Assembly (NCBI GenBank): GCA_030619425.1
Contig: JAUXBJ010000017.1
Coordinates: forward strand, 1 to 12,585
Length of the DNA stretch: 12,585 bases
Origin: a bacterium
GTDB taxonomy: Bacteria > Zixibacteria > MSB-5A5 > GN15 > FEB-12
Reading direction: 5' to 3'
Below the pieces are notes generated by a model. It saw only the letters and a program-made list of their open reading frames with translations. It searched no databases and was not told the DNA's origin. Positions 2,282-12,585 of the stretch are shown here, piece by piece. Both the position numbers and the translations under genes were made by a program. Positions within the stretch are counted from its first letter, which is position 1, and every line of letters begins with the position of its first letter.

Positions 2282-3604
2282 TTATACGCCGCTGAAGTGT
2301 ACATCCTTGAAGTACATACTGGGACGACGCCATGCCGAGTACATATACTCGTCATTGCCCACCATCACCAGTTGGTTCCACAACTCCGACAGGTTACCCG
2401 AGATGTTCATTTCGTTCACCGGTTTGACCGCCCGGCCATTCTCGATTAGAACGCCCATAATCCCGTACGAGAAATCGCCGGTGGTGGAGTTCGAGTTGCC
2501 GCCGATGAACGTAGTCACCAGAATGCCGCGCTGCATGCCTTCAATCATCTCGTCAAGAGACTTATCGCCCTTGTCTAAAACCAGATTGGTTGTCGAGCCG
2601 GTCGTTGGCTCCATCCCGAGTTTCTTGCCATAGTAAGTATCGATGTAGAACGATTTCAAGACGCCCTTGTCGACCATAACCCGGCGTTTTGTCGACATGC
2701 CTTCACCGTCGAACAACTTTGAACCCAGCCCGAAATCGATGAAGGGATCGTCGATAATAGTCAGTTTGTCCGATCCGATTCTCTGACCAAGCTTGTCGTC
2801 GAGAAAGGAACTCTTCTGTTGCAGGGAACGTCCGCTCATGGGGCCGATAAGCGCCCGAAGCAGTCGACTGCCGGCACGATTCTCGATGAGCATATCATAT
2901 CGGCCCGACTCCAGCTTGGTCTGACCAAGCTTGCGCAGGGCCCGCTGCACCGCCAGCTTTCCGACAACTTTGGCAGCCGGCAGGTTCTTGCGGAAACGTA
3001 CTGTGCGCCAGTCCCAATCTTCAGGACGGCTGCCGGAATCGTCACGAACTGTGGCCTCAGCGCCGATTGAGAACGAAGTTCCCATCCGGTCCCCCTCGAA
3101 TCCGTTACTATGGACCTTGACCGTCTCAAAAAATGAGTCGGAGAAACTGGAGGTGCAGGAGATGATGCGCTCACTTTCGGCCAGGGCGGCGTCCTCGATC
3201 CGGCGTGCAATGGCCACTCGTTCGTCCGAGGTGAGACTATCGTAGGCCGGGTCAAACATATGCAGATCGAGTGACTCTCTTCCCGCGTAGTACTTGGGGT
3301 CCGGCAACGTTCGATACGGGTCCTCGTTGAGATACTTGGTCATGGCCACAGCTTCGGTCACGAACGACTCCAGACCTTCTCGCCGGATATCATTGGTCGA
3401 GTGGCCGGAATAACGATTACCGACATACAGCGATAGACTCAGCGAGTTCTGAGTTGACTCCTTCAGCGTCTCCACCTGCCGCTCGCGACATCCGATCTCG
3501 ATATTGCGGCTGCGTGCAATATTGACGGCCACATCGTCGGCTCCGGCCTTCCTGGCCCGGGCCACCACCCATCCGGCCAGTTCATATGATTCTGATTTAT
3601 TCAT
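2282..3604 (-). CDS. pmbA: PmbA/TldE, non-catalytic partner of the TldD metalloprotease
   Basis: This 440-residue protein belongs to the TldD/PmbA family. In the E. coli model, TldD and TldE (PmbA) form a heteromer that degrades flexible peptides; TldE lacks the zinc site. No HExxxH motif is present here, while family features are clear: DDPFIDFGLGSKLFDGEG, GVLKSFYIDTYYGKKLG, the TTGSTTNLVL segment and a C-terminal FSYGIMGVLIENGR. ATG at 3604 (MNKSESYELAGWV) is preferred because it begins right at the normal N-terminal helix, with AAGAAAG about 9 nt upstream. A GTG at 3643 would add 13 residues of low-complexity charged sequence. The gene follows tldD by 60 nt on the same strand, and no promoter is evident between them, so co-transcription is likely. 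No signal peptide is visible, in contrast to its partner. The assignment as PmbA is firm; the substrate is unknown. Confidence 0.93.
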   Translation of the reverse strand: MNKSESYELAGWVVARARKAGADDVAVNIARSRNIEIGCRERQVETLKESTQNSLSLSLYVGNRYSGHSTNDIRREGLESFVTEAVAMTKYLNEDPYRTLPDPKYYAGRESLDLHMFDPAYDSLTSDERVAIARRIEDAALAESERIISCTSSFSDSFFETVKVHSNGFEGDRMGTSFSIGAEATVRDDSGSRPEDWDWRTVRFRKNLPAAKVVGKLAVQRALRKLGQTKLESGRYDMLIENRAGSRLLRALIGPMSGRSLQQKSSFLDDKLGQRIGSDKLTIIDDPFIDFGLGSKLFDGEGMSTKRRVMVDKGVLKSFYIDTYYGKKLGMEPTTGSTTNLVLDKGDKSLDEMIEGMQRGILVTTFIGGNSNSTTGDFSYGIMGVLIENGRAVKPVNEMNISGNLSELWNQLVMVGNDEYMYSAWRRPSMYFKDVHFSGV

Positions 3605-3664
3605 CTTCGATACTTTCTTTATTTCTCTTGCTTGTCCTGACACTTATCAGCCGTCGCAACCCCC

Positions 3665-5209
3665 TCACGAGGAGACACCGCCGACTGTGATCGACGACAC
3701 CTTGATCGTCGGCAATCCGAACGATACCGGCACCCACTGACCATTCTTGCCGCAGGTGCCGCCGCCCTCCATCAACTCCAGGTTATCAGCGACCATTACC
3801 ACTTTGGTCAGCACGTCAGGTCCGTTGCCGATGATGTTGACATCCTTGATCGGACGTGTCTTCCTGCCGTTCTCGATCAGGTAGCCGGACTTGAGGTAGA
3901 AGGTAAAATCACCGGCGCCGATATGAACCTCTCCATTGGTAAAGGACTCAGCATAGATGCCCTTCTTGACACTCTGGATTATTTCGTCGTGCTTATGCGG
4001 CCCGGGGAGCATGTAGGTGTTACGCATCCGCGGCATCGGTTGGTGACGGAATGACTGTCGCCGACCGTTGCCGGTTGGATTGACGCCGTAGTGCTTCGCG
4101 CTGATATGATCGTGCAGGTAGCTTTCGAGAATGCCGTTGCGAACCAGGTAAGTCTTCTCTGATTGGTTGCCTTCGTCGTCAATGTTGATCGAACCACGCA
4201 TGTTCGGATTGGTGCCGTCATCGACAATCGACACAAAACTCTCAGCTACCGGTCTGCCGATCTTGTCGGAGAAGATAGAGGTTTCTTTGCGGTTGAAGTC
4301 GGCTTCCATGCCATGACCGATGGCCTCGTGCAACAGGATGCCGGATTGCGCGGGAGCCAGCACAACCTCCATTTCGCCGCCCTCAGGCTTTACCGCCTCG
4401 AACAACTCCACCGTGCGCCGAACAGCCGTCGAGGCCAAAAGGTCAATCTTTTCCGGACTGAAGTAGTCCATCCCATGCCGACCACCGAGATTGTATCCAT
4501 TCTCCTCGCGCCGCCCGTTCTGTTCGGCGGTACAACTCACGAACACCCGAGTCATCGGCTGGTAGTCGCAAGCTATTCGGCCGTCAGAGGAAGCCACTAT
4601 CATGTAGCTGGTGCTGTCAGTGAAGTACACCTGGGACTTCACAATGCGCTTATCAGTAGCAAAGACTTTTTCGTTCAGGGTCTGCAGGTGTGGTATCTTC
4701 CGGTCGATCCCCACTTCCTCCCATGAAATGTTGATAGGGTAGTAGTTCGGCACATTGCTGGTCACCAACTTCTGCGGCGGCGCCGCTTGACCCCGGCCGG
4801 CGATATTGGCCGCTGTCCGGGCCGCCAGTTTCATGGCCTTCGGCGTAAGCTCCTCAGTGAAGGAATAACCGACCCGGTCCCCGTCAATCACTCTAATGCC
4901 GACACCTAAGTCGACGTTAGTGTACGCCCGATTGACCAAATGGTCTTCCAGGGCCACCGTGTTGCTGATTGCGTGTTGAAAGAAGAGATCGCAATAGTCA
5001 CCGCCATGGGCCAGCGCGGCTGACATCACATCCCGAATTTCGACCTCGCTGACAGCAAAGTGTTTCAGGTATTCCTCTAAGTTACCTGAGGCGAGTGGCG
5101 GCGCTGCGAACGCCGCTAGCGGGTTACCCTTGAAGATCATGGGGACTCCGGCCACCACCAGTCCCATGGCGCCGGCTTTCACGAAATCTCTTCTGGTTAT
5201 CTGGGCCAT
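3665..5209 (-). CDS. tldD: TldD zinc metalloprotease with Tat signal peptide
   Basis: This 514-residue protein is the catalytic subunit of the TldD/PmbA pair. The zinc motif HEAIGH lies at residues 294-299, and the third-ligand cysteine is in GGTCGKNGQ (C486). FSDKIG, a STRRGS-like NMRGSINIDDEG segment and NGILESYLHD also match the family. The N-terminus is unusual: ITRRDFVKAG (R6, R7) fits the twin-arginine consensus and is followed by a hydrophobic stretch at about residues 12-26 and a likely signal-peptidase site after AFA (33-35). This places the enzyme outside the cytoplasm or at the membrane, unlike E. coli TldD. The start at 5209 is fixed by GGAGGAG at 5222-5216, 6 nt upstream. An in-frame ATG at 5224 would bury that site and adds only five residues. 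Transcription probably begins from the promoter at 5408-5380. pmbA follows in the same operon. The substrate is unknown. Confidence 0.94.
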   Translation of the reverse strand: MAQITRRDFVKAGAMGLVVAGVPMIFKGNPLAAFAAPPLASGNLEEYLKHFAVSEVEIRDVMSAALAHGGDYCDLFFQHAISNTVALEDHLVNRAYTNVDLGVGIRVIDGDRVGYSFTEELTPKAMKLAARTAANIAGRGQAAPPQKLVTSNVPNYYPINISWEEVGIDRKIPHLQTLNEKVFATDKRIVKSQVYFTDSTSYMIVASSDGRIACDYQPMTRVFVSCTAEQNGRREENGYNLGGRHGMDYFSPEKIDLLASTAVRRTVELFEAVKPEGGEMEVVLAPAQSGILLHEAIGHGMEADFNRKETSIFSDKIGRPVAESFVSIVDDGTNPNMRGSINIDDEGNQSEKTYLVRNGILESYLHDHISAKHYGVNPTGNGRRQSFRHQPMPRMRNTYMLPGPHKHDEIIQSVKKGIYAESFTNGEVHIGAGDFTFYLKSGYLIENGRKTRPIKDVNIIGNGPDVLTKVVMVADNLELMEGGGTCGKNGQWVPVSFGLPTIKVSSITVGGVSS

Positions 5210-5373
5210 AAGGCACTCCTCCATTATGTTTAGCGGAAAACTGATCGGGAGAAAAGGGCATACGAATCCATCGCATGCTGAGCTTTACGGGGATGTCGGG
5301 CGATGGTTCCATCGTTATGCAGGTTCTGCGACAGTAAATGCGGAGCCGTGAGTCGAACCGGCTCAACTCTATG
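5210..5373 (-). promoter_or_regulatory. Structured 5' leader of tldD-pmbA
   Basis: From the predicted transcription start near 5373 to the tldD ATG there is an untranslated leader of about 164 nt with several inverted repeats. GAGCCG (5364-5359) pairs with CGGCTC (5348-5343) around a 10-nt loop. Further on, CGATGG (5314-5309) can pair with CCATCG (5306-5301) in a tight hairpin. The same middle strand, as CCATCGC (5306-5300), can instead pair with GCGATGG (5274-5268). The two hairpins exclude each other, as in attenuators or translational switches. There is no U-run after the distal hairpin, so a transcription terminator is not apparent. No known riboswitch class was recognised. Any regulatory function is inference from base pairing only. 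Confidence 0.4.
5216..5222 (-). promoter_or_regulatory. Ribosome binding site deciding the tldD start
   Basis: Reading the minus strand, GGAGGAG is followed by six bases and ATG at 5209. The perfect complement to the 16S tail and the ideal spacing select this ATG over the in-frame ATG at 5224, which overlaps the site itself. The choice also gives a normal, short Tat n-region. Confidence 0.85.
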
Positions 5374-5625: not shown

Positions 5626-5632
5626 AATGCAA

Positions 5633-6553
5633 ATGCGATTCGACAACATTGCCGATACTGTCGGCCGAACACCGTTGGTCAGGATTAATCGGCTCACCTT
5701 GCCTCGCTCGGCTATGCTATATGCCAAGTTGGAAAGTTTCAATCCCGGCGGTTCAGTTAAAGACAGGATTGGGGTGTCTATGATTGAGGCGGCCGAAAGA
5801 GATGGTCGCCTGAGGCCGGGCTTGACCATCGTCGAGCCCACCTCCGGCAACACCGGTATTGCGCTGGCTATGGTTGCCGCCGCCAAAGGCTACCGTTGCG
5901 TGTTCACCATGCCCGAGACCATGAGCGTGGAACGTCGCGCCATACTCAAAATGTTCGGCGCTAAGATCATTCTTACGCCGGGTTCGGAGGGGATGAAAGG
6001 AGCCATGGCCAAAGCGAACGAATTGGCCGGCCAGGCTGGATACTACCAGCCGCAACAGTTCAGCAACCCGGCCAACCCGGAGGTTCATCGTCGCACCACT
6101 GCCGTGGAGATCATCAACGACCTGGACGATTTGCACCTTGATGCTCTGGTGTTAGGGGTCGGGACCGGCGGGACTATTACCGGCACCGGTACAGTTCTCA
6201 AAGACAAATACGGTTGCCGGATTGTTGCCGTGGAACCGGACGCTTCGCCGGTGCTTTCCGGCGGTGATCCGGGTCCGCACCCGATTCAGGGCATAGGCGC
6301 TGGGTTTGTGCCCGACAACTACGATGCCGGTATTGTCGATGATATCATCAGGGTCAGGAACGAAGATGCCCTTGAGACCTCGCGCCGTATGGCTGCCCGG
6401 GAAGGGATGCTGGTCGGAATATCATCCGGCGCGATCGTCTGGGCGGCTCTGCAGGTCGCAGCCGGACTGGGCGAAGGCAAGATGGTGGTCACTATTGTTC
6501 CCGACACCGGCGAACGCTATCTTTCCACGGCCCTGTTTGAACACTTGGAGTAG
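5633..6553 (+). CDS. cysK: Cysteine synthase (O-acetylserine sulfhydrylase)
   Basis: This 306-residue PLP enzyme converts O-acetylserine and sulfide to cysteine in the cytoplasm, the last step of sulfur assimilation. Visible motifs are GRTPLVRI (residues 11-18), NPGGSVKDR with the PLP lysine K43, the substrate-binding PTSGNTG loop, [11 protein letters not shown], typical of O-acetylserine sulfhydrylases, the phosphate-binding glycine loop [10 protein letters not shown] and VGISSGA near the C-terminus. Length and motifs fit CysK/CysM. No long N- or C-terminal extension (such as the CBS domains of cystathionine beta-synthase) is present. cysE follows after 42 nt on the same strand, so the two probably form one transcript. 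An AGGAG site fixes the start at 5633 rather than 5627. A palindrome at 5600-5614 is a candidate operator. CysM-type specificity cannot be ruled out from sequence alone, but pairing with cysE favours CysK. Confidence 0.95.
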
Positions 6554-6595: not shown

Positions 6596-7171
6596 ATGCG
6601 AGCGATTATTGAAGACATAAGAGCGATCTATCGCAACGATCCGGCTGTCAGAAACATTGAGTTTCTGCTTTATCCCGGTTTTCAAGCGATATTCTTTCAC
6701 CGGTTTATTCATTTCTTGTGGAACCTGAAGGTTCCGTTTGTCCCACGACTGCTCTCGCAGATTTCACGGTTCTTCACCGGGCTGGAGATACATCCGGGAG
6801 CGACGATTGGCCGGGGGTTCTTTGTCGATCATGGCGCCGGAGTTGTGATCGGTGAAACGACGATTATCGGGGATAACGGCGTGCTGTTTCATAATGTGAC
6901 CCTGGGCGGAACCGGCAAACACCAGGGCAAACGCCATCCCTCGCTGGGGAACAATGTGTTCATCGGTACCGGCGCAACTCTCCTGGGACCGATTGAGGTT
7001 GGCGACAATGTCAAGATCGGCGCCAATACTTTTGTCGTAATGCGTGACATCCCTTCCGATTGTTCAGTCGTTGGCACTCCGGCGCGGATCATCAGGCGCA
7101 ACGGCGTTCCCTGCGACGAGGAACCCCCCAAGACTATCGACCGTCTGGTGCACGAGGGAAGTTTCGGCTGA
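6596..7171 (+). CDS. cysE: Serine O-acetyltransferase
   Basis: This 191-residue enzyme transfers acetyl from acetyl-CoA to serine, supplying O-acetylserine to CysK. A helical N-terminal part (about residues 1-60) is followed by left-handed beta-helix hexapeptide repeats from IHPGATIGRG to about residue 165. Catalytic features visible are VDHGAGVVIGET, with D78 and H79, and HNVTLGGTGKHQGKRHP. It is the short form; E. coli CysE is about 273 residues with a larger N-terminal domain. The C-terminus is SFG, with no final isoleucine. In several bacteria that residue inserts into the CysK active site to form the cysteine synthase complex, so the complex may be absent or built differently here. GGAGAGG (6576-6582) is 13 nt before the ATG, unusually far, and a three-codon ORF (6585-6596) ends in TAATG overlapping the start. 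Confidence 0.95.
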   Translation: MRAIIEDIRAIYRNDPAVRNIEFLLYPGFQAIFFHRFIHFLWNLKVPFVPRLLSQISRFFTGLEIHPGATIGRGFFVDHGAGVVIGETTIIGDNGVLFHNVTLGGTGKHQGKRHPSLGNNVFIGTGATLLGPIEVGDNVKIGANTFVVMRDIPSDCSVVGTPARIIRRNGVPCDEEPPKTIDRLVHEGSFG

Positions 7172-7303: not shown

Positions 7304-7312
7304 AAGGTGGAG
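7304..7312 (+). promoter_or_regulatory. Ribosome binding site of the dikinase-like gene
   Basis: AAGGTGGAG lies directly before two in-frame GTG codons at 7312 and 7318. The purine run ends 5-7 nt before 7318 but overlaps or abuts 7312, so GTG 7318 is the better start; the difference is two residues. Confidence 0.55.
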
Positions 7313-7317
7313 TGACG

Positions 7318-9867
7318 GTGATTCGAACCGGTAAGTATTCCGAAGGTGACTGGGGAGACGGTGCGGAACTACGCGCTATTAGAGATAAATTTAGCCACTT
7401 TCGCCGTCTGTTGGACCATAACCACCAGGCTCTCGAAATTCTGGGCGACATGGAGGAAAAGTCACAGGGGAAGTACCTCTTTGATCTCAACTTCATACGA
7501 TCGCGCCTGGCCGATCTGCGGGCCAACGTAAGCGAGATCATTCGTTGTCTGGTAACACTGGGAGGGGACCACTATCAGGTTTTGCAGGAACGATTCACTT
7601 TGATCGATGATCAGATCGAACTCGTTTTTCCAAGCAATCGTCCCATTCGAGAAGACGCATACTGCCGTCGGTTCGACACTCTGAGTCGGATGAATTCTTA
7701 CAGCGTCGGAAGTAAGAACGCGCAATTGGGTGAAATGATCTCCAAGCTCGGGCTTCCAGTGCCCCAAGGGTTTGCTGTCACTGCCTGGGCGTACAAACGC
7801 TTTATCGAAAGCAACGACCTGCAAAACCGGATCAGCGAACGGATCGATTCCGTCGACATCCGTAGTTTCCGAGACCTGGTTCGAGTGAGCGGAGAGATAG
7901 TCGATCTGATAAAAGCGTCCACCGTCCCGAACGACCTGGCCGAGGCTATCATAGAACACGCGCGTGGACTGACGACGAAAGCTCGGGAGGCACGCTTCTC
8001 GCTTCGGTCCAGCGCTATCGGTGAAGATACGCTGTTCAGTTTCGCCGGCCAGTACGCCTCATACCTGAACGTTCGGTCGGACCAGTTGGTGCGACGATAT
8101 CGTGAAGTGTTGGCCGGCAAATTCACACCACAAGCGATCTACTATTTTCTGAGCCACTCCCTTTCCGAATCGGAGTTGGCTATGAGCGTCGGTTGTGTGG
8201 CCATGGTGGACGCCGCAGCCGCTGGAGTGGCGTACAGCCGCGACCCGGTCAACCCGGTCGACGATCATGTTCTGGTGAATGCTGTTTGGGGCCTCGGCAA
8301 GTTCCTGGTTGACGGTACACTCACACCCGATAATTTCCGCGTCTCGAGACGCGGCAAGTTGATCGAGGCGCAAATCGCCGACAAACCGGTTCATCTGGTC
8401 ATGGATACTCACGGCGGGACTATCAGCCGGCCGGTGTCGCCGAAGCTGCGACAGAAACCATCGCTCACCAATAAACAACTCCGCAACCTTGCTCGCTACG
8501 CTGTGCTTTTGGAGGAGCACTATGCTTGCCCTCAGGATATCGAATGGGTGGTCGATCAAAAAGGCAAGCTGCTGTTGCTTCAGACTCGGCCGCTCCAGGT
8601 GCAGGCGATTCAACCCGGTACGCCGCTGCCGGATTTGTCCGACGCCGAAGTCCTGGTTTCAGGGGGAGACACCGTCTGTCATGGCGCCGGTTGCGGTCGG
8701 GTTCACCATGTGACGTCGGCGGATGGTTTGCCGTCGGTACCGGAAGGCTCGGTGCTGGTAGCGCCCAATCCGTTTCCCGGGTTGGTGACGGTGATGAACA
8801 AGGTCAATGCTCTGGTTACTCGCGTCGGCGGCGTCGCCAGCCACATGGCCACGATAGCCCGTGAGTATCGGGTGCCGACCCTGACCGGTGTGCCCGACGC
8901 CCTGAACCTGCCGGCCGGAGAAATTGCTACCGTCGATGCGACCGGGGCCGTTGTGTATCACGGGCGCCTGGACGAGCTGCTTCAGGCTCGACACCCGGAG
9001 TACAACCTAAGTGATGAGGAGAGCATCTTCGATATCCTCGGGCGCGTACTGGACTTGGTTTCGCCTCTCAGGTTGCTGCATCCCGACGACGATGATTTTC
9101 AGGTCGAGAACTGTGTGACGCTGCACGATATTACCCGATACGCGCATCAGAAGGCGACCGAGGAGATGTTCTACCGGGCCACCGATATCGCCGACAAAGA
9201 GCGTATCGGTCTGCGTCTGAAAACGGACGTGCCGGTGACAGTCGGTCTGGTCTATCTGGATCGTGGCCGCCGGGCATCCGGCCGTCGGGGCTGGGTCAAG
9301 GAAGAGGACCTCGGTTCGATACCGATGCGAGCCTTCTGGAGCGGTGTCAAACAAGAGGGCTGGCCGCAGTCGGGTGGGGACGAGCACGCGCTCAAGTTAA
9401 CCTTGAAAGATCGTGGCGCACTGCCATTTTCTGAGAACTCGTTTGCCGCTCTCAGCGAGGAGTATATGATCCTCAGTCTGCGTTTTGGCTATCATTTTGC
9501 GACCGTGGAGGCGCTGTGTTCGGATAATATCAATAAGAACTATATCAACCTCCAATTCAGTCATGGTGGCTCTACCTTCGACAGGCGGGCCCGCCGCGTG
9601 AGCCTCATGACGACAATACTTAGGGAGATGGAGTTTGAGTGCCGCACCAAGGGGGACTTTCTGGAAGCTACCGTCTCCTACAAGGATGCTGAGGCCATGG
9701 TCAGCAAGCTGACCCGCCTGGGGCGCCTGACCATAATGACCAAACAGCTCGATATGGCGCTTTCCACCGACCAGGTTGCTTCCTGGTATTTGAATGACTT
9801 TCTGAAGAGACTGGACCTGGTGGAAGTTCCGACATCGGCCGACCGACCGGAGAAAGGATGCGACTGA
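7318..9867 (+). CDS. PEP-synthase-like phosphotransferase with a non-canonical C-terminal domain
   Basis: This 849-residue protein (GTG start) combines four parts. Residues 1-115 look like an all-helical bundle (FSHFRRLLDHNHQALEIL). Residues about 120-430 are the PPDK/PEP-synthase ATP-grasp domain: NSYSVGSKNAQLGEM, LRSSAIGED (R230) then FAGQYASYLNV, YSRDPVNP, QDIEWVVD and QTRPLQ. Residues about 475-560 are the swivelling phosphohistidine domain, with TRVGGVASHMATIARE and H509 as the likely phosphorylated residue, ending in VDATGAVVYHG. Residues about 565-849 are not the usual PEP/pyruvate TIM barrel: I see no RTE-type or NDLTQ-type motif, but instead RFGYHFATVEALCSDN, NKNYINLQF and GRLTIMTKQLDM. 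I recall similar uncharacterised proteins in deltaproteobacteria, but know of no assigned acceptor. The protein probably uses ATP to phosphorylate H509 and passes phosphate to an unknown acceptor, much as rifampin phosphotransferases use a non-PEP third domain. Its stop overlaps the start of a response regulator (TGATG). Confidence 0.85.
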   Translation: MIRTGKYSEGDWGDGAELRAIRDKFSHFRRLLDHNHQALEILGDMEEKSQGKYLFDLNFIRSRLADLRANVSEIIRCLVTLGGDHYQVLQERFTLIDDQIELVFPSNRPIREDAYCRRFDTLSRMNSYSVGSKNAQLGEMISKLGLPVPQGFAVTAWAYKRFIESNDLQNRISERIDSVDIRSFRDLVRVSGEIVDLIKASTVPNDLAEAIIEHARGLTTKAREARFSLRSSAIGEDTLFSFAGQYASYLNVRSDQLVRRYREVLAGKFTPQAIYYFLSHSLSESELAMSVGCVAMVDAAAAGVAYSRDPVNPVDDHVLVNAVWGLGKFLVDGTLTPDNFRVSRRGKLIEAQIADKPVHLVMDTHGGTISRPVSPKLRQKPSLTNKQLRNLARYAVLLEEHYACPQDIEWVVDQKGKLLLLQTRPLQVQAIQPGTPLPDLSDAEVLVSGGDTVCHGAGCGRVHHVTSADGLPSVPEGSVLVAPNPFPGLVTVMNKVNALVTRVGGVASHMATIAREYRVPTLTGVPDALNLPAGEIATVDATGAVVYHGRLDELLQARHPEYNLSDEESIFDILGRVLDLVSPLRLLHPDDDDFQVENCVTLHDITRYAHQKATEEMFYRATDIADKERIGLRLKTDVPVTVGLVYLDRGRRASGRRGWVKEEDLGSIPMRAFWSGVKQEGWPQSGGDEHALKLTLKDRGALPFSENSFAALSEEYMILSLRFGYHFATVEALCSDNINKNYINLQFSHGGSTFDRRARRVSLMTTILREMEFECRTKGDFLEATVSYKDAEAMVSKLTRLGRLTIMTKQLDMALSTDQVASWYLNDFLKRLDLVEVPTSADRPEKGCD

Positions 9868-10436
9868 TGAAGGGAAGAATCCTGGCTGTTGATGATGAAT
9901 TGCACATGCTGAAACTGCTCGAAAGAGTATTTGCCGAAAGAACACAGCATCGGATTACAACTACCAATAACCCTCTGGAAGTGGCGGGAATCCTGGAGCA
10001 GGAGCGATTTGATATCATCATCACCGATCTGAGGATGCCGGGCATGGACGGCATGGAGATACTGCGCTGGATGGCCGATAATGATCGCGATGAGCAAGTC
10101 ATAATCATCACCGCTTTTGGTTCTGTTGAGAGCGCGCGAGAGGCGGTTTCGCTGGGCGCCTTTGACTACATAAACAAGCCGTTCAAGCAGGAGGAGCTTC
10201 TTTTCGCCGTCGATAGAGCGCTTCACTTTGCTGCCATGCGCAAGGATTTCAAACAGGCCCATAAACTGTTCTCCATACAACCGCTCTCAGAAGCTACCGA
10301 GCAGTTCACCAGCGCCTATATCCGTCGGTTGGCATTGACCGTGGATAATGATCCACAGGTTGTGGCCGAGCGGAGCGGTCTCAATCTGGATGAGGTCAAG
10401 CGCCTCCTGCAGAAGGAAAACGACCGGAAATTGTAG
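9867..10436 (+). CDS. Response regulator, receiver plus short HTH-like tail
   Basis: This 189-residue protein has a complete CheY-like receiver at residues 1-118: acidic pair D9/D10 (AVDDE), phospho-acceptor D54 in IITDLRMPGMDG, T82 in IITAFGS and K104 in INKPF. After a linker, residues about 140-185 (QFTSAYIRRLALTV then DPQVVAERSGLNLDEVKRLLQ) resemble a Fis/NtrC-type helix-turn-helix. There is no AAA+ domain, so the layout is like the small ActR/RegA-type regulators. DNA binding is inferred, not certain. ATG 9867 overlaps the dikinase stop as TGATG, with AAAGGA 8 nt upstream. ATG 9858 would add MRL and is an acceptable alternative. No histidine kinase is encoded nearby. Translational coupling to the dikinase-like gene suggests the two proteins work together. 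Confidence 0.9.
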   Translation: MKGRILAVDDELHMLKLLERVFAERTQHRITTTNNPLEVAGILEQERFDIIITDLRMPGMDGMEILRWMADNDRDEQVIIITAFGSVESAREAVSLGAFDYINKPFKQEELLFAVDRALHFAAMRKDFKQAHKLFSIQPLSEATEQFTSAYIRRLALTVDNDPQVVAERSGLNLDEVKRLLQKENDRKL

Positions 10437-10488
10437 ATTGCGCTGCTTCCGGCTGTGACTATATTTCGGCAGTGAAAGGAACTGATAT

Positions 10489-11013
10489 ATGAAGATGACA
10501 AGAGCCGGCGATCTGATGATCCCGCTGGAAAAGTACCCGCATATGCCTCACTGGTTCACACTCAGGCAGGCAATCGTTGAGATGGAAAACTCGGTCCTGG
10601 AAATCGACGGTCGCAAGTCTCTGCCGAGAGTGGTTCTGGTGTTCGACGAAAAATACCAATTGGTCGGATTGTTGCGCCGCCGTGATATTCTGCGCGGACT
10701 CGAACCGGAGTTTCTCACCGACAAACCGCTGGACTATCGCAAGAAGCTGTTTGACGTCAAAGTCGATCCCAACCTGTCTGAGATTTCCTTTGATAAGATC
10801 CTCGAAGGTGTACGCAGGCGAGCCGACCGGCCGGTTAGCGATGTCATGATCCCGGTGGCCGGTACTGCCGACTACGATGACCACATCGTCAAGGTGGTCT
10901 ACGAGATGAACGCTAACAAGTTTAGCCTGCTGCCGGTACTCAAAGATGGTCGCGTGGTGGGTGTTGTGCGGACAGTGGATGTTTTTCGTGAGTTTGCCAA
11001 GTTGGTCATATAG
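10489..11013 (+). CDS. Protein with two CBS domains
   Basis: This 174-residue protein is almost entirely a tandem CBS pair (Bateman module), at about residues 6-72 and 115-172. These modules usually bind adenine nucleotides such as AMP or ATP and transmit energy status to a partner. The first domain ends in LVGLLRRRDIL (D66) and the second in VVGVVRTVDVF (D164). Both keep the ribose-contacting aspartate, but the Thr/Ser normally three residues before it is replaced by arginine, so ligand preference may differ. No catalytic or transport domain is attached, so it probably acts by binding another protein. ATG 10489 has AAAGGA at 10475-10480, 8 nt upstream. The 52-nt gap after the response regulator shows no terminator, so it is probably the third gene of that unit. 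The partner is not known; the dikinase-like protein is the obvious candidate. Confidence 0.88.
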   Translation: MKMTRAGDLMIPLEKYPHMPHWFTLRQAIVEMENSVLEIDGRKSLPRVVLVFDEKYQLVGLLRRRDILRGLEPEFLTDKPLDYRKKLFDVKVDPNLSEISFDKILEGVRRRADRPVSDVMIPVAGTADYDDHIVKVVYEMNANKFSLLPVLKDGRVVGVVRTVDVFREFAKLVI

Positions 11014-11055: not shown

Positions 11056-11103
11056 AGGTCTCTTGGAGGTAAATGCTGTTGTCGTGCTCTCCCGACGAGA
11101 CCT
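11056..11103. repeat. Inverted repeat between convergent genes, possible terminator
   Basis: AGGTCTC (11056-11062) pairs perfectly with GAGACCT (11097-11103), and inside it GTCG (11081-11084) pairs with CGAC (11093-11096), which abuts the outer arm. The structure lies in the 88-nt gap between convergent genes and touches the stop codon of the Memo-AMMECR1 gene. There is no T-run on either side, so it is not a standard intrinsic terminator. Function is uncertain. Confidence 0.3.
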
Positions 11104-12585
11104 ACTCCCCGAATATAACCGCCTGGAACTTCAATATCACGGCTTGGGGTAATTTGTAGGCGTGGGGTGGCAAGCCCGCCTTGCGACAGGTTTGCTCCAG
11201 GAATGTGTCGCGGTCCCATCCATTGTCAGTCGCTACCTGAGGCAGCAAGAGACCGCGATTTCTGCCCATTACAATCATCAACCCATCGCGACCGACCTCA
11301 ATCTCGTCGAGCGATGCAGTTTCCTCAAGCGGCGTCAGGACCGATATCTCGATGTGCAACCCGGCCAATTCATCGGCCTGCACGGGAGTAAACCTCGGAT
11401 CCTCCACCGCTGCCTTGATAGCACATGACGACACTGTTCTATACAGCGGCTCGACTGCCTGTGTGTAGCCGATGCAGCCGCGCAGACGACCCTGCTTCTC
11501 CAACGTCACAAAAGCCGCCCCCGGTTCGAGTAGTATCCCGGTTACCTCGAACTCCGGGACGGCGCCGTCCTTCAGATAATCGGCAATCGACTGACGGGCG
11601 ATCTGCAGAAGGCGCTTCTTCTGGCTCGCACTCAGATAGTATGGTTCTTTCTTTTCCACTTTCAACTCCCCATTGTCCGGTACTTGTTCTGTTTTGTCGT
11701 TCTTCTTTGCACTCTGACGATAGAGCACCATTGCGGCGTAACCGACCACCGACTGTTTGTCGCCGCTCACATCCCCGGAATCACCATATCGAAGCAGCCT
11801 GGCCCGATTGGCCCCTTTCCTGAGGGCGGCCCTGGTAACTGCGACCGTCACGCCGCCGCCACACATCTCAACCTTGCCTGATGCCAGCAGTGTTGCCAGC
11901 CGGTCGGGGTCCAAATCCAAAAGGCAAGCGATGCCGAGAGAGTCCATCGGCGCGCCGACCGATGATGGTTTGAAATGCTGCCAGTCGGTCGAGGCGACCA
12001 TGATCGTGCGCGAATCGTACTCGAGTCCCTCCAGCGCGGTCGCCAACATATCGATTCTGTGCTTGTCTTGATACCTGATCACCACCGGGACGATTGTGAA
12101 ATCAGGTAGCACTGATTGCAGGTATGGCAACTGTACTTCCAACGAATGCTCGCGCGCATGAGCCGCCGCGATAACATCGATTCCCTTCCCGGACGCCAGC
12201 GCCGTGCATAACTCATCATCGCATCGCACAGATCCAAGAGGCGTGTGCCAGATCACACCGGGGCCGTAGACCGATGCCCCTTTGACGGGATAGCGATGGG
12301 AGGGACCGCAGAGAATCACCCGATTGACATCGGACCCTTCGAGAAGTTCGTAGCTGTGAGCGGCGATAGCCCCGGAGTAGATCAACCCTGCGTGGGGTAC
12401 GATGAGTGCAATTATATCTCCATCAATCACCGGCAGGTCGGTAGCCTGGGCCAAATGTTTTTGAACCATCGCTGCCAGGGCGCCGCTATCTGCTGGGTAA
12501 AAGGCGCCCGCTACAGCCGGGTGACGATCTTCGCCCGCGGCCTGTCCAGCTACTATCAGAGCACATAGCAAACACAATGTCAAAC
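11102..12585 (-). CDS. Secreted-type Memo-AMMECR1 fusion (AmmeMemoRadiSam proteins B and A), 5' end outside the window
   Basis: The frame is open to the right edge, so the start probably lies beyond 12585; a TTG at 12583 is the only start-like codon near the edge. The visible N-terminus (TLCLLCALIVAGQAAGED) is a hydrophobic signal-peptide core with a likely cleavage site near QAA, implying export. Counting from 12583, residues about 20-285 form a Memo domain: HPAVAGAFYP, VPHAGLIYSG (H64), GPSHRYP (H96), REHSLEVQLPYLQ, STDWQHF and CGGGVTVAV, which supply the conserved histidines and cysteine. A charged linker (about 287-310) leads to an AMMECR1 domain (about 312-493) with the hallmark RGCIGY, followed by AAVEDPRF and EISVLTPLE. 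Memo and AMMECR1 usually occur with a radical SAM enzyme in the AmmeMemoRadiSam system, whose chemistry is not fully established. That enzyme is not in this window and might lie upstream of this gene. The domain assignment is firm; the biochemical role is not. Confidence 0.92.
   Translation of the reverse strand, partial: LTLCLLCALIVAGQAAGEDRHPAVAGAFYPADSGALAAMVQKHLAQATDLPVIDGDIIALIVPHAGLIYSGAIAAHSYELLEGSDVNRVILCGPSHRYPVKGASVYGPGVIWHTPLGSVRCDDELCTALASGKGIDVIAAAHAREHSLEVQLPYLQSVLPDFTIVPVVIRYQDKHRIDMLATALEGLEYDSRTIMVASTDWQHFKPSSVGAPMDSLGIACLLDLDPDRLATLLASGKVEMCGGGVTVAVTRAALRKGANRARLLRYGDSGDVSGDKQSVVGYAAMVLYRQSAKKNDKTEQVPDNGELKVEKKEPYYLSASQKKRLLQIARQSIADYLKDGAVPEFEVTGILLEPGAAFVTLEKQGRLRGCIGYTQAVEPLYRTVSSCAIKAAVEDPRFTPVQADELAGLHIEISVLTPLEETASLDEIEVGRDGLMIVMGRNRGLLLPQVATDNGWDRDTFLEQTCRKAGLPPHAYKLPQAVILKFQAVIFGE

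Follow-up and report, generated by a model that had tools for sequence, protein, structure and literature searches.

Three adjacent genes on the plus strand of a 12,585-nt stretch of DNA from a Zixibacteria genome (contig JAUXBJ010000017.1 of assembly GCA_030619425.1; the whole stretch is called the window here) encode a dikinase-like protein (DIK), a response regulator with a receiver domain (RR) and a protein with two CBS stretches (CBS). The explanation favoured here, with a confidence somewhat above even when the wiring is included, is that these genes are the surviving part of a module for the control of sulfur-oxyanion uptake in dissimilatory sulfate reducers, whose fullest form has the gene order DIK-HK-RR-CBS-DASS, where HK is a histidine kinase and DASS a symporter of the Na+/sulfate family. 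The link to sulfate is strong, the association of the module with sulfate reduction alone being highly probable from the genome comparisons; the wiring of the module we infer. What the comparisons show is the gene order, the absence of the kinase and the separate position of DASS in this lineage, the association with sulfate-reduction genes, and that DIK has kept its catalytic residues.

The window is one contig (C276) of a genome (G000) of 2.3 Mb in 413 contigs, which is 69% complete. The three open reading frames (ORFs) are placed as the first-pass annotation described them, the first two overlapping by TGATG and the third following 52 nt later (Table 1). Its description of their products as an ATP-grasp plus phosphohistidine enzyme, a complete receiver and a two-CBS protein was borne out by PPDK_N and phosphoenolpyruvate (PEP)-utilising mobile domain matches in DIK, by a receiver domain with D9, D10, D54, T82 and K104 in RR and by two matched CBS stretches in CBS. 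As it had also noted, no histidine kinase was present among the window ORFs, and no dedicated kinase orthologue was found in the genome.

To trace the family, genomes were searched with the C-terminal domain of DIK. It was found in 20 of 61 near genomes and in 78 of 198 genomes of a second phylum, which was reached via a Deltaproteobacteria-labelled locus and had up to 12 matches per genome. A scan of named genome contigs gave at least 547 confirmed relatives, and the best 80 of 547 were kept. Neighbourhoods were compared for 129 DIK loci, or 116 after near-identical DIKs were dropped, with mechanical gene calling; HK, RR, CBS, DASS and TauE genes were labelled by purpose-built profiles, examples of which were checked by Pfam. 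Within 3.5 kb of DIK in the 116 loci were found HK (64), RR (76), CBS (38), DASS (30), TauE (49) and a protein of about 229 aa called M229 (30). At 3.5-7.5 kb the corresponding numbers were 21, 29, 8, 6, 3 and 2, the near zone holding 747 genes and the far zone 407 in all, with some loci ending early. DASS or TauE was near DIK in 73 of the 116 loci, and none of the six gene types was near it in 9. The HK, RR and CBS genes recurred around DIK homologues from records labelled as several phyla. The adjacency of DIK, RR and CBS is more than chance: the neighbourhood comparison suggested by the first-pass annotation, which had proposed the three genes as a functional group, found receiver and CBS genes beside DIK homologues at many loci and not only in this genome.

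In the fullest order (e.g., L036, L040, L054, L060 and L064), an HK gene stands between DIK and RR. This was the case in 36 of 50 RR-bearing rows, which include near-duplicate loci and some RRs that are long or unlike that of the window. A gene for about 450-780 aa occupies this place in L036, L040, L041, L042, L043, L046 and others, and the three tested by Pfam (L036, L040 and L042) consist of PAS, HisKA and HATPase_c domains. Two long kinases of the three matched dCache_1 at 41.1 and 33.9 bits, under the Pfam cut-off of 45; the kinases of two other clusters, L162 and L163, matched it above the cut-off. The gene after CBS in L036 is Na_sulph_symp (DASS family) by Pfam. Some DIK genes (L045, L048, L065, L072, L077 and L149) have CBS nearby and no RR.

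With the L036 kinase as query, three HK-bearing genomes scored 961, 652 and 535 bits. No HK orthologue was found in G000, G001, G004, G053, G043 and G037, where the best matches reached 143-155 bits in the kinase core only, the completeness behind this negative being 69% for the window genome and 96% for G001. The window operon is without a cognate histidine kinase, unlike a classical two-component system. DIK-RR-CBS is retained in two other genomes of the window genus, G001 (L031) and G004, DIK being split over two contigs (L033 and L152) in the latter; in G006, the fourth genome of the genus with DIK, the contig stops inside DIK. The window, G001, G053, G043 and G037 form one clade in the tree (Shimodaira-Hasegawa-like approximate likelihood ratio test, SH-aLRT, 99), and the HK-less L062 adjoins an HK-bearing relative (SH-aLRT 99), in a quick tree of 48 rows (8 of 56 were dropped beforehand) with 16 of 45 inner branches weakly supported. 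The kinase was most simply lost once before the split of the window, G001, G053, G043 and G037 lineages, and again elsewhere.

Genes of dissimilatory sulfate reduction were found beside DIK. In L045, Sat, AprB and AprA are above the NCBIfam cut-offs and lie 2.3-4.8 kb upstream of DIK, and Sat-AprB-AprA homologues lie 1.6-3.9 kb upstream of it in L060/L141. Downstream in L036 are two HdrA-like (qmo-like) genes, below the NCBIfam HdrA cut-offs, with homologues in L040. For the phylum, 132 genomes were tabulated with E<=1e-120 for DIK, E<=1e-80 for aprA and E<=1e-60 for dsrA, which gave DIK in 31, aprA in 50 and dsrA in 47 of them. The curated cut-off for aprA was passed in 44 of the 50 genomes, the other 6, including the window genome, having partial matches. 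Either aprA or dsrA was present in 30 of the 31 DIK genomes versus 24 of the 101 without DIK (Fisher p 7.7e-14), and in 44 of the 48 DASS genomes versus 10 of the 84 others (p 1.3e-20), both p values ignoring kinship. The same pattern was seen within the window genus: G000, G001, G004 and G006 have DIK and aprA, with dsrA in 3 of the 4 and with the aprA of G000 present as two fragments under the cut-off, and G002, G003 and G005 are without DIK, aprA and dsrA.

DASS was found in 48 of the 132 phylum genomes, and a CBS homologue lies directly upstream of the DASS gene in 36 of 48 cases. The family of the window CBS occurs in 44 of the 132 genomes, and aprA or dsrA is present in 41 of these 44. 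In G053, G043 and G037 the CBS-DASS pair lies away from DIK, and in the window genome the DASS orthologue is on a separate 4.9-kb contig without CBS. Since CBS pairs with DASS in the phylum and DASS is elsewhere here, the window CBS gene is therefore most simply a former neighbour of DASS. Its CBS pair is a predicted reader of adenylates. The DASS in the full cluster is a Na_sulph_symp (PF00939) protein, and a review of sulfate transporters (PMC5840216) surveys this family as putative sulfate importers. Putative transporter genes are described there as mostly far from sulfate-reduction genes, with some exceptions, whereas some of those found here are near sat-aprBA or qmo-like genes. A word find for CBS, histidine kinase, response regulator and dikinase in that review returned no occurrence.

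DIK is built of N-terminal helices, an ATP-grasp domain, a phosphohistidine swivel domain and an unclassified C-terminal domain. In the swivel domain, His511 aligns with the phospho-acceptor His of PEP synthase, and we take it to be the phospho-acceptor of DIK as well. It is His in 130 of 130 DIK rows of the residue table, which include near-duplicate loci; R232, E411, Q424 and R426 of PPDK_N, presumably the catalytic ATP-grasp residues, are kept in all 130 too. The enzyme thus appears to be equipped for autophosphorylation, as the first-pass annotation had supposed. The N-terminal region is conserved, with D46, E48, K50, G84 and G85 invariant among 85 aligned sequences, and may be a docking surface for RR.

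In the C-terminal domain, H605, D606, R609, H612, H728, N743, R762 and D782 were kept in all 130 rows. Pfam matched nothing beyond residue 544 of DIK, no barrel family was among the matches of 88 DIK C-terminal domains, and no convincing structural match was obtained. Judged from the list of its elements, the predicted secondary structure does not form a beta/alpha barrel. The domain is unclassified in the libraries searched, and one protein search returned at least 444 homologues of it. Many names among the matches listed for DIK homologues are 'pyruvate, water dikinase' or PEP synthase, and these names are probably wrong. PEP synthase and PPDK share with DIK the ATP-grasp PPDK_N and the swivel domain with its His, but their PEP/pyruvate-binding TIM barrel is unmatched in DIK, which has the N-terminal helices and the unclassified C-terminal domain. 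Against the PEP synthase equivalog of NCBIfam (TIGR01418), DIK scored 312.9 bits with a cut-off of 739.75, and against rifampin phosphotransferase (NF041857) 217 bits with a cut-off of 999; both scores fall short, the first of them far short. The domain order of rifampin phosphotransferase is ATP, rifampin-binding, His, whereas that of DIK is ATP, His, C-terminal domain. The DIK front end, the receiver, CBS and DASS are all of known kinds, the C-terminal domain of DIK being the unclassified part. In the second phylum (Deltaproteobacteria-labelled) DIK has multiplied into paralogues: G182 has 12 matches, and several loci (L093, L096, L129, L154 and L160) carry two or three DIK genes each. In the window genome, five contigs besides that of DIK (C260, C297, C55, C191 and C183) have PPDK_N matches, and the DIK match of G034 (C1:581817-584324) had one in-frame TGA in the genome search.

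The five receiver residues named above, by which the window RR qualifies as a receiver, are likewise kept in G001 and G053. Twenty-seven RRs of <215 aa directly after DIK or DIK-HK at chosen loci were compared, 21 with HK and 6 without. Asp54, the phospho-acceptor position, was present in 21 of 21 RRs accompanied by the kinase. Among the six without it, Asp54 was kept in four (window, G001, G053 and L062) and replaced by Glu in two, the sisters G043 and G037, where Asp10 was also lost. DIK is intact in both of these, with His511 and the ATP-grasp residues present, and because an intact DIK occurs there with Glu54, DIK is kept for a role other than phosphorylating Asp54. The alpha-1 face of RR (H13, M14, L17, L18 and E19) is kept in all six kinase-less RRs. 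Since this face survives kinase loss, as does the receiver chemistry in the window lineage, the receiver probably still has a partner, for which DIK is the candidate. The C-terminal extension is gone in the Glu54 receiver of G037 (L037:6812-7243). Many RRs beside DIK are of <165 aa, and the one checked, that of L162, is a receiver alone.

It has been reported that nitrate resistance in Desulfovibrio maps to the cluster DVU0251-DVU0245 / Dde_0597-0605 (Korte et al. 2014; PMC4001038). The cluster comprises a TauE permease, a conserved hypothetical protein, PtxB, a histidine kinase, a receiver-domain RR (gene of 360 bp), a PPDK_N/PEP-mobile protein and a phosphatase. In D. vulgaris the kinase gene carries a pseudogene annotation. 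Isolated mutants of this species with a disrupted gene for the dikinase, RR, the hypothetical protein or TauE grew equally with and without 100 mM nitrate; preliminary data showed little or no benefit for the isolated kinase mutant, and the D. alaskensis kinase mutant (Dde_0602) had a raised fitness of 2.34 in nitrate (PMC4001038). The authors suggested a leaky thiosulfate transporter, the function being printed as a hypothesis (PMC4001038). Our locus L162, with the order TauE - DUF4881 - HK - RR - DIK, resembles this cluster, in the same order bar PtxB, for which no Pfam match was found at L162; the L162 DIK belongs to the DIK family. Unlike the window, which has CBS but lacks an adjacent transporter, the Desulfovibrio cluster contains TauE and PtxB, and its published table shows no CBS or DASS. 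DVU0246 was not named among the matches listed (120 from each of three protein searches). By analogy, the Desulfovibrio phenotypes support the view that dikinase, RR and an anion permease may act in one pathway. In the open-licence literature, neither the DIK-HK-RR-CBS-DASS module nor a link between it and dissimilatory sulfate reduction was met with, its TauE form (PMC4001038) excepted, and nothing was found on dikinase-receiver phosphotransfer or on a link between CBS, a sulfate transporter and a two-component system.

According to the favoured explanation, RR would be phosphorylated by a histidine kinase that sits in the membrane and has a dCache-like sensor region, and would exert its effect through binding to a partner, most likely DIK. 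The latter would autophosphorylate His511 from ATP with release of AMP, as in PPDK_N chemistry, and would hand the phosphate on to an acceptor that the C-terminal domain of DIK holds. CBS would be the regulatory partner of the DASS symporter, reading the adenylate state and gating DASS. The module would thereby match the uptake of sulfate or other sulfur oxyanions to outside supply through the kinase and RR, and to inside adenylates through CBS and, via ATP/AMP, through DIK. Activation of sulfate by Sat costs ATP and yields pyrophosphate (PPi), and reduction of the resulting adenosine 5'-phosphosulfate yields AMP. Since sulfate activation costs ATP to AMP + PPi, coupling uptake to adenylates makes sense. 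The steps from RR to DIK and from CBS to DASS are suggested by gene order and by the RRs without output domain. One of the two ideas of the first-pass annotation, that the receiver and CBS gate the system, agrees with the evidence. Because the dedicated kinase is gone in the window genus, RR there would be fed by another donor or be active unphosphorylated. In a more specific form, DIK would be the output of an HK-receiver pathway controlling sulfate or sulfur-oxyanion uptake, RR would dock via its alpha-1 face, DIK would turn ATP/AMP status into a phosphoryl signal, and after kinase loss DIK and the receiver would still cooperate, DIK possibly as phosphodonor; we consider this full set of claims unlikely to hold.

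Several points weigh against the uptake-control explanation. DASS is not adjacent to the window genes; DASS occurs without a close DIK in 22 genomes, and aprA or dsrA without DIK in 24, which shows that neither sulfate reduction nor DASS requires DIK. G012 has DIK, CBS and DASS and neither aprA nor dsrA, being the sole exception among the 31 DIK genomes, and G005, G051 and G071 have DASS without aprA or dsrA. The genome counts ignore kinship. Pooled and isolated Desulfovibrio mutants disagree for the hypothetical and kinase genes (PMC4001038), and DVU0246 is no more than a putative relative of DIK, by gene content and order. Furthermore, an RR may have a partner other than DIK to act on, and the window RR could bind DNA through its extension.

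Instead of relaying a signal, DIK could be a metabolic phosphotransferase or ligase acting on a small molecule of sulfur oxyanion metabolism, with HK, RR and CBS only regulating the expression or transport of the same pathway. This would agree with the dikinase-family logic of an ATP domain, a swivel His and an acceptor domain, with the invariant His/Asp/Arg/Asn set of the C-terminal domain, and with the up to 12 DIK matches per second-phylum genome, as for enzymes with several substrates. However, DIK is repeatedly paired with a signalling pair and a transporter, and we regard a purely metabolic role as possible but not probable.

The other idea of the first-pass annotation was that DIK is the phosphodonor, passing phosphate from His511 to Asp54 of RR in place of a histidine kinase. 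It may apply in the window lineage, whose receiver keeps its acidic pocket, and D9, D10, D54, T82 and K104 persist in the window, G001 and G053 despite kinase loss; in D. vulgaris, moreover, RR disruption led to nitrate resistance, yet the kinase gene is annotated as a pseudogene and its mutant gained little or nothing in preliminary data (PMC4001038). As a general mechanism the idea was not supported, since the kinase gene lies between DIK and RR in most RR-bearing rows, some DIK loci are without RR nearby, and Glu replaces Asp54 in G043 and G037 with all DIK catalytic residues kept. Disruption of Dde_0602 raises nitrate fitness, so the kinase matters in D. alaskensis (PMC4001038). In addition, the conserved C-terminal domain looks like DIK's own acceptor site, and many other kinases of the cell could be the donor. 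Phosphotransfer from DIK to RR is considered improbable. Equally improbable is an ordinary two-component transcription cassette, in which RR would activate sulfur genes through a Fis-like C-terminus with DIK and CBS as passengers. For it speaks the RR extension, which in this clade resembles a helix-turn-helix by eye (HTH_8 in one relative, E 0.16, under the cut-off); the extension of the window RR, of roughly 65 aa, had no Pfam match. Against it, loci assigned to several phyla have DIK and CBS together with the pair, many DIK-adjacent RRs are as short as noted above, with that of L162 lacking any extension, and in G037 the extension is wholly lost.

The coordinates of the features are collected in Table 1. 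On the minus strand, the flanks hold a tandem TldD/PmbA-like pair and a Memo-AMMECR1 fusion, within 2282-5224 and 11102-12583. Further genes were noted around the TauE-type DIK clusters. Among the 30 loci with M229 (e.g., L126:4117-4827 and L097:5214-5903) near DIK, 27 also had TauE, and the M229 example tested had no Pfam match; elsewhere Alph_Pro_TM comes after TauE. Such clusters are adjoined by genes for universal stress proteins (Usp) in L122:7001-8764, L157:9852-10643 and L169:4922-5356, Usp being another possible nucleotide-binding partner. A gene for a cytidylate-kinase-like and BON protein lies directly before DIK in one TauE-type cluster (L151:5306-6124).

Table 1 Features of the three-gene group and its upstream neighbours in the window
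Feature	Position	Strand	Basis or remark
cysK-like gene (pyridoxal phosphate enzyme), upstream of DIK	5627..6553	+	also there in G001, G004, G006
cysE-like gene (hexapeptide transferase), directly upstream of DIK	6596..7171	+	also there in G001, G004, G006
DIK, dikinase-like, 849 aa	7318..9867 (GTG 7318 to TGA 9865-9867)	+	ORF, Pfam; in-frame alternative start at 7312, 851 aa
DIK N-terminal helical region, residues 17-105	7360..7626	+	three helices in model; no Pfam match
DIK ATP-grasp PPDK_N, residues 131-432	7702..8607	+	Pfam, E 9.4e-90
DIK PEP-utilising mobile (swivel) domain, residues 477-544	8740..8943	+	Pfam, E 1.2e-16
DIK His511 codon	8842..8844	+	
DIK unclassified C-terminal domain, ~residues 572-833	9025..9810	+	position of PEP synthase's pyruvate-binding barrel
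TGATG stop/start overlap of DIK and RR	9865..9869	+	HK gene of ~1.4-2.3 kb at same junction in many RR-bearing relatives
RR, receiver domain and ~65-aa C-terminal extension	9867..10436	+	receiver E 1.4e-28; ATG 9867, stop 10434-10436
RR Asp54 codon	10026..10028	+	
CBS, 174 aa, two CBS stretches	10489..11013	+	Pfam; ATG 10489, 52 nt past RR stop

If the favoured explanation is true, DIK would represent a new type of phosphohistidine protein, in which an ordinary front end is joined to an unclassified acceptor domain. Which putative transporters of sulfate reducers carry sulfate was stated to be unclear, and high-affinity sulfate uptake was described as regulated with the regulator not named, in the consulted passages of the review (PMC5840216). 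The DASS-CBS pair and the dikinase-receiver module track dissimilatory sulfate reduction across the phylum genomes, and a Desulfovibrio cluster of like make-up has mutant phenotypes; these would be genes to test.

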